Positions 7,486-29,977 of a stretch of DNA of 64,000 bases are shown one piece after another. The stretch is taken from contig NZ_CP073586.1 in NCBI RefSeq assembly GCF_022267555.1, forward strand, positions 3,452,501-3,516,500. Direction: 5' to 3'. This DNA is from Proteiniphilum propionicum (GTDB taxonomy: Bacteria > Bacteroidota > Bacteroidia > Bacteroidales > Dysgonomonadaceae). Every line of letters begins with the position of its first letter. Positions within the stretch are counted from its first letter, which is position 1. The notes under the pieces are model-generated. The model was not told where the DNA came from. It saw only the letters and a list, made by a program, of their open reading frames with translations, and made no database searches. Made by a program: the position numbers and the translations under genes.

Positions 7486-7569
7486 TGCGCAGGATGAGAG
7501 TCGAACTCACACGCCGTAACCGGCACTACCCCCTCAAAGTAGCGTGTATACCAATTTCACCACCTGCGC
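7486..7569 (-). tRNA. tRNA-Leu (GAG)
   Basis: On the minus strand GCGCAGG pairs with CCTGCGC as acceptor stem, with A as discriminator. The anticodon stem CTACT/GGTAG closes a 7-base loop TTGAGGG, giving anticodon GAG. A long class II variable arm and the GTTCGAC T-loop are present. CCA is not encoded. It is the second gene of a tRNA-Leu pair. Confidence 0.96.
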
Positions 7570-7576
7570 ATTGCAG

Positions 7577-7660
7577 TGCCCGGAACAGGGGTCGAACCTG
7601 CACGTTGTTGCCAACACTAGTCCCTGAAACTAGCGCGTCTGCCAATTCCGCCATCCGGGC
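7577..7660 (-). tRNA. tRNA-Leu (CAG)
   Basis: On the minus strand GCCCGGA pairs with TCCGGGC and the discriminator is A. The anticodon stem CTAGT/ACTAG holds the loop TTCAGGG, giving anticodon CAG. A class II variable arm and GGTTCGACC T-arm are clear. CCA is not encoded. Seven bases separate it from the downstream tRNA-Leu(GAG), so both are probably cut from one transcript. Confidence 0.96.
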
Positions 7661-28477: not shown

Positions 28478-28542
28478 TTTTACTGGTTAATAACTATTTA
28501 GCATGAAAAGGTGGTTAAAGGGGAAAAAAATGTCACAAAATA

Positions 28543-28574
28543 TTTGGATATTAAGTTTAGACAATCTATCTTTG
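28543..28574 (+). promoter_or_regulatory. Promoter of the structured RNA before the chromate transporter genes
   Basis: TTTG (28543-28546), 20 bases, TATCTTTG (28567-28574), one of the best promoter matches in the window. Transcription would start near 28581. Confidence 0.72.
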
Positions 28575-28579
28575 GGTAT

Positions 28580-28783
28580 ATAAAATGAATGAGTTATTGC
28601 CGCATTGGTCGATTGGGAAACTCATCAATTACATTTTATAAACCGAGACTCGTTTTTGGTATCGATGGCGGGCCGCAGCCTTCGGGATTCGTCTTCGGGC
28701 GGACAGCGGATTACAAAGATACCGGGACACTCAAATCCTGTCATAAGGAGTTTCGTCTTATTCCACCGGTGCGGCTTCTTATA
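28580..28783 (+). ncRNA. Structured RNA: 6S-like RNA or cis-acting leader of the chromate transporter genes
   Basis: Hand-paired stems enclose the region: 28599-28608 with 28766-28775 (10 bp), 28617-28623 with 28748-28754 (7 bp), then a large open bubble (34 and 24 bases) whose 3' side has a small hairpin (GACA 28726-28729 / TGTC 28739-28742), then 28658-28663 with 28718-28723 (6 bp) and two C(TTCG)G tetraloop hairpins at 28679-28686 and 28688-28703. A closing stem, a central bubble with a 3'-side hairpin and an apical stem is the architecture of 6S RNA. A terminator follows and lies only about 12 bases before the chromate transporter start, so a riboswitch-like role is an alternative. No coding frame explains the sequence. 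Confidence 0.6.
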
Positions 28784-28836
28784 AAAAGCAGATTAGCAAC
28801 AGATTACATCTTATTGCAGTCTGCTTTTGCTTTATA
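28784..28836 (+). terminator. Rho-independent terminator directly before the chromate transporter start codon
   Basis: AAAAGCAGA (28784-28792) pairs with TCTGCTTTT (28820-28828), with an inner GCAA/TTGC pairing (28796-28799 and 28814-28817), and a T-rich tail follows. The next gene begins at 28849, and no promoter is visible between the hairpin and the gene. Confidence 0.75.
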
Positions 28837-28848
28837 TATAGTCTTCAA

Positions 28849-29406
28849 ATGAGAGTATTAAAACAGTATTGGGAACTTTTTCTGGTTTTTTTTAAGATCG
28901 GAGCTTTTACGTTTGGGGGCGGATATGCAATGATACCACTTATAAGAAACGAGGTGGTAAATAAAAAACTGTGGCTTGATGACAGCGAATTTATGGATAT
29001 GCTTGCCATTGCCCAGTCCATGCCTGGCCCCATTGCATTGAACACGGCGCTTTTTGTAGGTAATAAACGGTCTGGATTCAAAGGAAGCATCTTTTCCGGA
29101 GCTGGGGTTATCTTACCCTCGTTTATAGTAATCCTGCTTATCGCAATGGTATTTACCCGGTTCAGGGAAAACCACGTGGTTGAACGTATTTTTAGAGGTA
29201 TACGACCCGCTGTGGTGGCACTTATCGTGTCACCGCTACTTGGACTGGGCAAGTCGGCCGGAGTGAATTTTAAAAACATCTGGATCCCTTTGGTTGTAGC
29301 ACTATCGGTTTGGCTACTAAAAATCTCCCCTGTCTATATCATTCTTACAGCTATCATACTGGGGATTTTCCATTTTATTCATGTGAAACAGATAATGAAA
29401 AAATAA
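28849..29406 (+). CDS. Chromate transporter family protein, first half
   Basis: 185 residues, one CHR domain. It starts LFLVFFKIGAFTFGGGYAMIPLIRNEVV, the family signature (FKxGxxxFGGGYAxxPxxxxEVV), followed by AIAQSMPGPIALNTALFVG and several membrane segments. Short CHR proteins work as pairs in which the two halves correspond to the N- and C-terminal domains of long ChrA. The second half follows one base after the stop codon. The true substrate in anaerobes is unknown; chromate or sulphate-like oxyanions are the family assumption. Confidence 0.93.
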   Translation: MRVLKQYWELFLVFFKIGAFTFGGGYAMIPLIRNEVVNKKLWLDDSEFMDMLAIAQSMPGPIALNTALFVGNKRSGFKGSIFSGAGVILPSFIVILLIAMVFTRFRENHVVERIFRGIRPAVVALIVSPLLGLGKSAGVNFKNIWIPLVVALSVWLLKISPVYIILTAIILGIFHFIHVKQIMKK

Positions 29407-29407
29407 G

Positions 29408-29977
29408 ATGGAACTCCTTGATCTCTATTTGGCTCTATTTGCATCGTTTTTCAAAATCGGACTTTTCGGTTTCGGTGGTGGATATGCCATGCTACCGCTC
29501 ATACAGCGTGAAGTTGTGGATGTGCATCAGTGGATATCGGTAAATGACTTCACCGATATTGTGGCTATCTCGCAGACCACTCCCGGACCCATCGCGTTCA
29601 ACTCAGCCACTTACATCGGATACACTACGGTCACGGATATGGGATTTGCAGCCGGTTACGGTGTTTTAGGCTCCGCCATTTGCACTCTTGCCGTAAGCAT
29701 ACCCTCTCTGGTAATCATGACCGTTGTTTGCGCATTCTTCTCACGTCTCAAGGAGAACCCCTGGATGAGGGCCGCTCTTTCAGTACTGAAGCCGGCTATC
29801 ATAGGACTTATTGCTTCTGCTGCCCTGATGTTGATGAACGGCAATAATTTTATTGATTATAAAAGCTGGATAATCTTTAGTGTGGTTCTTGTGGCTTCCA
29901 TAAAAAAAGTAGATCCCATATTGCTGATAGTGCTATCAGGTGTTGCCGGACTATTGCTCTACCCTATGCAGGTATAA
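29408..29977 (+). CDS. Chromate transporter family protein, second half
   Basis: 189 residues, second CHR domain: FASFFKIGLFGFGGGYAMLPLIQREVV near the start, then AISQTTPGPIAFNSATYIGY. Six or so membrane segments. It is paired with the gene at 28849 (1-base gap) and ends with LLLYPMQV. A second, near-identical copy of the last nine codons including the stop lies 38 bases downstream at 30016-30042, suggesting a past local duplication or deletion. Confidence 0.93.
   Translation: MELLDLYLALFASFFKIGLFGFGGGYAMLPLIQREVVDVHQWISVNDFTDIVAISQTTPGPIAFNSATYIGYTTVTDMGFAAGYGVLGSAICTLAVSIPSLVIMTVVCAFFSRLKENPWMRAALSVLKPAIIGLIASAALMLMNGNNFIDYKSWIIFSVVLVASIKKVDPILLIVLSGVAGLLLYPMQV

Follow-up and report, generated by a model that had tools for sequence, protein, structure and literature searches.

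A probable 6S RNA gene with its own promoter precedes a chromate transporter pair in Proteiniphilum propionicum

Which kind of RNA is encoded directly in front of a chromate transporter (CHR) gene pair of Proteiniphilum propionicum? We analysed a stretch of 64,000 nucleotides of its chromosome (contig NZ_CP073586.1, positions 3,452,501 to 3,516,500), here called the window. A first-pass annotation had described its positions 28543-28848 as either the 6S RNA of this organism or a new attenuator acting on an oxyanion transporter. The 6S half of this alternative is right, whereas the riboswitch half fails. Judged by homology, it is nearly certain that the stretch encodes the 6S RNA (gene ssrS) of a Bacteroidales bacterium, equipped with its own promoter and presumably sharing the polymerase binding and pRNA release of its family. 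The identification is supported by the match to Rfam family RF01693, the single copy, the covarying closing and apical stems, the conserved promoter, the changing neighbours, and the overlap with 6S-Flavo and with zapA-linked copies. The annotation is thereby settled for the window as 6S RNA and no new riboswitch. The RNA is ordinary in kind, an added member of a known family. The locus consists of the following features, all on the forward strand.

28543..28574, +, Bacteroidota sigma-A type promoter, with -33 element TTTG at 28543-28546 and -7 element TAnnTTTG at 28567-28574 (sequence, motif conservation, sigma-A consensus)
28598..28782, +, 6S RNA (Rfam RF01693, Bacteroidales-1), 138.3 bits against a gathering score of 60, E 4.6e-23 (cmscan)
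28599..28608, +, 5' strand of the closing stem, 10 bp with 28766-28775 (covariation over 65 sequences)
28618..28623, +, likely 5' strand of the inner helix, AAACUC, pairing with 28748-28753 (conservation)
28652..28728, +, apical arm with two C(UUCG)G loops at 28680-28685 and 28693-28698 (Rfam structure, covariation)
28748..28753, +, likely 3' strand of the inner helix, GAGUUU, also the end of a weak 6S-Flavo match (conservation)
28766..28775, +, 3' strand of the closing stem (covariation)
28784..28828, +, terminator hairpin AAAGCAGA...TCTGCTTTT (fold; near-identical stem in L037, L045 and the CHR-linked loci)
28849..29977, +, chromate transporter pair (28849-29406 and 29408-29977), a neighbour outside the RNA (PF02417, 187.1 and 173.7 bits)

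Compared with all 4227 Rfam families, as the first-pass annotation had proposed for the RNA, the 64-kb window gave four matches over the cut-off, namely three tRNAs and RF01693, which Rfam itself describes as a suggested 6S-Bacteroidales RNA. The RF01693 match is full-length (model positions 1-179), and its score is more than twice the gathering score. The genome contains one copy, in keeping with 6S RNA, which normally has one or few per genome. A search of 28480-28900 at E up to 10 returned seven matches, among which the classical 6S/SsrS model, presumably RF00013, is absent. A match to the classical model is not treated as defining, the phylum having lineage-specific models. The only 6S-type families in this search were RF01693 and 6S-Flavo (RF01685), the latter with 23.4 bits against a cut-off of 85. 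Low as this score is, the 6S-Flavo alignment starts with an ACUCA block and ends with a GGAGUUU block, both of which are conserved, and the arm layout aligns as well, so that ends and layout are common to the two RNAs. We also built a covariance model, R1, that includes the closing stem and the inner helix, from 65 training sequences. It scored 173.8 bits over 28596-28784 and, at E up to 10, matched nowhere else in the window, the window locus itself being part of the training set. Across 295 genomes of the order, none reached the 6S-Flavo cut-off; there were 27 matches to this family, and at least 14 of them coincide with R1 matches. An 87-aa frame across the RNA (28589-28852) is a mechanical ORF. 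The Rfam scan further placed two 84-nt tRNA genes side by side at window positions 7486-7660 on the minus strand.

The stretch 28580-28840 folds at -78.7 kcal/mol (z = -3.59), and none of 200 shuffles was as good. The covariation analysis that the first-pass annotation had recommended was carried out on an alignment of 65 of 96 fetched loci (the window's own included), all mutually less than 90% identical. Left out were three loci identical in the RNA stretch, 23 with at least 90% identity to a kept locus, and five removed outright, L077 for truncation at a contig end and L083-L086 for scores below the cut-off. The tested structure, composed of closing stem, inner helix and apical arm, is paired in 94.0% of 1863 cells, and changes on both sides are seen in 23 of 29 tested pairs. 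When one strand was shifted by 1-3 columns, pairing fell to 37-46%; this control is biased in favour of the structure, which was partly drawn from the same 65 sequences. The 10-bp closing stem, one of the long-range stems claimed earlier, is paired in 96.9% of cells over the six of its ten pairs that were counted, with changes on both sides in all six. The apical arm, which carries both of the predicted tetraloops, has such changes in 15 of 17 tested pairs. Closing and apical stems thus covary among relatives. In the RF01693 consensus the closing stem is unpaired; its covarying pairs are an addition to the Rfam model, from which nothing essential is otherwise different. 6S RNA is laid out as closing stem, middle and apical arm, and the window RNA accordingly presents a closing stem, an internal bubble and an apical arm with covariation. 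The hairpin GACA...UGUC that had been placed on the 3' side of the bubble is present in the minimum-energy fold but unsupported across the alignment: it is pairable in 83.1% of cells compared to 84.2% with shuffled letters, shows no covariation in the 65 sequences, and is incompatible with outer apical pairs, which covary.

The inner helix AAACUC:GAGUUU makes it uncertain how far the open bubble extends. All six of its pairs are kept in 65 of 65 sequences, and double changes occur in two pairs only, in one sequence each. Its probability in the energy fold is 0.05-0.07 in the window and 0.38 on average over 86 loci, exceeding 0.5 in 32 of them. Given this low fold probability, it is conservation and not energy that makes the helix likely to be real. 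In L071, a double change in the inner helix breaks one pair of a rival 3' hairpin, GAGU:ACUC, which argues weakly for the inner helix. The rival hairpin has a probability of 0.00 in the window, and its 86-locus mean is 0.02 with the RNA free and 0.03 when the template strand is blocked. We therefore rejected a switch driven by pRNA synthesis, which would have GAGU leave AAACUC and form this 3' hairpin with ACUC: blocking the template strand did not bring the hairpin about. Furthermore, the leader AUGAGUU (28589-28595) is complementary to AACUCAU (28619-28625) within the RNA and could compete with the inner helix for pairing. TGAGTT-like leaders recur in close relatives.

The promoter claimed at 28543-28574 is present, with its TTTG and TAnnTTTG elements 20 nt apart and a -7 element that reads TATCTTTG. 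TAnnTTTG stands at -12 to -5 in the sigma-A consensus given for Flavobacterium psychrophilum (PMC9723704), which places the predicted transcription start near 28579. Within 80 nt upstream of the RNA, the motif occurs in 89 of the 96 loci (own included), whereas dinucleotide shuffles averaged 7.9 and never exceeded 14. A sigma-70 consensus scan misses the promoter at 28543-28574, as expected for a Bacteroidota promoter type.

At the other end of the RNA, the terminator hairpin that had been claimed is present, although a simple terminator scan reports none at 28784-28828. Nearly the same stem sequence was found in the 20 CHR-linked loci that were folded, and the hairpin is kept in L037 and L045, which have TrpB upstream and no CHR downstream. 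The terminator therefore belongs to the RNA and not to CHR. Across relatives, a hairpin follows the RNA in most loci listed, some having no convincing one, in a survey that left out L048 and parts of L047 and L049.

The hairpin ends 20 nt before the CHR start codon at 28849, and the gap between RNA and CHR contains no exact TAnnTTTG, in agreement with the earlier statement that no other promoter is seen there. The exact motif is likewise absent from this gap in 19 of 20 CHR-linked loci (21 loci less L054, which has the same sequence as L053); in L032, the one exception, it lies within the terminator stretch. By comparison, 14 of the 27 window genes with a gap of at least 60 nt have an exact TAnnTTTG, the ORFs being called naively. 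These counts bear on a possible secondary cis effect of the 6S RNA, in which leakage through its terminator would be the main supply of CHR mRNA and the transporter would follow 6S output, much as in the ssrS-ygfA arrangement of Escherichia coli, where 6S RNA is reported to be co-transcribed with ygfA (PMC2848244). The CHR-linked loci are related, however, and represent far fewer independent cases than 19 of 20 would imply; the exact motif is also missing before 13 of the 27 window genes, including the CHR gene; the scan addresses the exact TAnnTTTG class only; and the terminator looks strong. We therefore regard leakage as the main supply as somewhat doubtful. The common absence of the motif, read with the relatedness of the loci and the ygfA precedent, makes it possible that CHR expression is fed by some leak through the 6S terminator.

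At E 0.001, RF01693 was found in 79 of 295 genomes of the order, in 56 of them over its cut-off. Within the family it was found in 38 of 41 genomes, including all 29 of good quality (completeness of 90% or more, contamination of 5% or less). Two of the 38 (G310 and G317) have two copies and the other 36 have one each. The paired copies lie about 0.4-0.5 kb apart on one strand (G310:C7:140971-141846 and G317:C2:306125-306893; loci L092, L036, L089 and L042). The neighbourhoods, studied with the 19 weakest of the 79 matches omitted, are diverse: IF-3/L20 genes, FeoB, GNAT, phosphoribosyltransferase and CHR genes all occur beside the RNA (one representative of each cluster tested). Upstream, 20 loci have an L20 gene, 16 of them together with IF-3, and 12 loci of the window organism's family have a FeoB-type gene, each assignment resting on one representative named by Pfam. 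Among 75 non-CHR loci, the first downstream gene of at least 100 aa (naive ORFs) is co-directional with the RNA in 48, runs the opposite way in 25 and is absent in two; the downstream genes form 54 distinct clusters overall. Such variable neighbours and strands are the behaviour of a free-standing RNA gene and not of a riboswitch. Together with its own promoter and terminator sequences, they point to a free-standing transcript of about 180-200 nt that is untied to any one gene, as 6S RNA is.

We postulate that a sigma-A type promoter of its own drives the 6S RNA, whose transcript would begin near 28579 and end at the hairpin 28784-28828. Its closing stem, partly unpaired middle and apical arm would imitate an open promoter. 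Most likely, the RNA associates with RNA polymerase holoenzyme and thereby reduces transcription of housekeeping genes as growth slows, until synthesis of a short pRNA on the 5' strand of the middle sets it free. The window itself provides the homology in sequence and structure, the promoter and terminator sequences, the copy number and the changing neighbours; for transcription, polymerase binding, pRNA synthesis and release, relatives and 6S RNA in general serve as the models. Bacteroides thetaiotaomicron belongs to the same order as the window organism. Its 6S RNA has been detected by dRNA-seq, and two classes of pRNA were reported (Ryan et al. 2020, PMC7366714), so that expression and pRNAs were seen there, whereas the window RNA is known from its sequence. 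We infer that the B. thetaiotaomicron RNA is an RF01693 RNA; the family also matches the control genome of Bacteroides ihuae. Compared to E. coli ssrS, the window RNA has the same closing stem, middle and apical arm and is likewise followed by a co-directional protein gene. The two differ in their flanks, as E. coli ssrS has zapA upstream and ygfA downstream, whereas the window RNA has CHR downstream and zapA elsewhere.

A small RNA of Bacteroidales that has a 6S-like shape and a different job is very improbable. In its original listing, the family that became RF01693 figured as a structured RNA whose entries for cis-regulation and for switch function were marked "?" (PMC2864571), and the 6S role is ascribed to the window organism by homology. 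Against a different job stand the B. thetaiotaomicron 6S data and the overlap with both 6S-Flavo and the zapA-linked copies described below.

Least probable of all is a cis-acting riboswitch or attenuator that would control the chromate (oxyanion) transporter pair by ligand-dependent termination, and we reject it on the linkage evidence. The position of the hairpin shortly before the start codon and the scarcity of exact -7 motifs in the gap would suit it, and CHR directly follows the RNA in 21 of 22 CHR-bearing family genomes, the exception being G322. CHR is also next in 38 of 42 named loci that share 30 bases with the window, a set biased towards one clade by this choice; the downstream sequence of the other four exceeds 3.9 kb in L114 and L125 and measures 441 nt in L099 and 98 nt in L128. 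The names among these relatives are Proteiniphilum, Petrimonas, Fermentimonas, Seramator, Dysgonamonadaceae and Porphyromonadaceae, or a wider group such as Bacteroidales. A second CHR pair occurs elsewhere in G314 and G321. The linkage is not fixed, however, as a fixed same-strand position upstream of transporter genes would demand. Of the 41 family genomes, 38 have the RNA and 22 have CHR genes, and 16 of the 38 RNA-bearing genomes have no CHR gene at all (G307 is 82% complete, the other 15 at least 98%). Both RNA and hairpin persist without CHR in L037 and L045, loci with and without CHR share the same conserved core, and a third of the non-CHR loci (25 of 75) have their downstream gene on the opposite strand. 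The RNA only happens to stand in front of the transporter, and does so in part of the family. In L037 (1919-2779), a PDDEXK_2 transposase-type gene occupies the place that CHR has in relatives.

Of greater interest than the window RNA itself is the existence of two genomic forms of 6S RNA in one order. R1 matched in 153 of the 295 order genomes, compared to 79 with RF01693, a count obtained with training loci from many of the 79 genomes, with rough E-values and in a search without control genomes; it suggests that 6S RNA is far commoner in the order than RF01693 shows. We sampled 40 loci matched by R1 only (L139-L178), the 20 best and the 20 weakest among the matches listed. Both strands of the inner helix are present in 37 of the 40, by a loose pattern that R1 itself favours. 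TAnnTTTG was found in the 82 nt upstream of none of them. GTTCTTT, which we take to resemble rRNA boxA, occurs within 70 nt in 29 of the 40, for the most part 14-33 nt ahead of the RNA; mononucleotide shuffles predict 0.09, and three of the 96 RF01693 loci have the heptamer. All 20 R1-only loci with longer flanks (L179-L198) have an ORF of 95-125 aa whose end lies from 51 nt upstream of the RNA start to 1 nt past it. Its product is ZapA by Pfam in 10 of 10 tested, and the other ten match a profile of those. A ZapA profile made from all twenty sequences recovered 20 of 20 control loci and, in flanks reaching up to 1.5 kb, matched none of the 96 RF01693 loci.

The distance to zapA was compared in 71 genomes among the matches listed for both zapA and the RNA. 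Among these listed matches, 45 of 46 R1-only genomes and 11 of 11 genomes with a below-cut-off RF01693 match have zapA on the strand of the RNA, 36-134 nt upstream of it, and zapA is adjacent in none of the 14 genomes over the RF01693 cut-off, the window's included. In the exception, G210, zapA and the RNA each lie near a contig end. The below-cut-off group is mixed, as G277, G072, G245 and G211 (L083-L086) have no ZapA in their flanks and eight more genomes fall outside the comparison. A search behind zapA covered 20 genomes that had no listed R1 match, of which G169 and G234 are weak R1 positives and 18 are R1-negative. It found a full-length R1 match after zapA on the same strand in 15 of the 18 (E at most 0.0022) and one more at E 0.032; two had no match, one of these being contig-limited, and all other matches of this search scored below 9 bits.

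The order ZapA then 6S RNA (ssrS) is known from beta- and gamma-proteobacteria (PMC7641849), and its recurrence here supports the 6S identity of the whole group. No title naming a zapA-6S linkage in Bacteroidota was found among the matches listed in a limited literature search. In the window genome, zapA (G000, 2166912) lies 1.3 Mb from the 6S RNA gene, which thus does not follow zapA as in many proteobacteria; such an order is not a requirement for 6S RNA. The window RNA belongs to the own-promoter form. For the order Bacteroidales we tentatively propose two states, a scheme that, taken whole, we consider unlikely. In the first, probably ancestral state, 6S RNA would form the promoterless end of a zapA-boxA-ssrS unit, subject to antitermination of the rRNA type and cut from the zapA transcript. 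In the second, the gene would have moved and acquired its own sigma-A promoter and, in part of the window organism's family, CHR as a leak-fed passenger. The two forms raise the question of how 6S RNA is made from genes that lie behind zapA and a boxA-like element and show no -7 motif.

Of 15 near-complete 16S loci, 9 (raw count) carry GTTCTTT 95-120 nt ahead of the rRNA, corresponding to 4 of 7 16S-bearing genomes out of 15 genomes searched; the heptamer is absent before the two 16S loci of the window genome. The agreement between 16S and 6S within single genomes is loose: G247 and G094 have the element before both, G015 before 6S only, and G224 before one of its three 16S copies and not before 6S.
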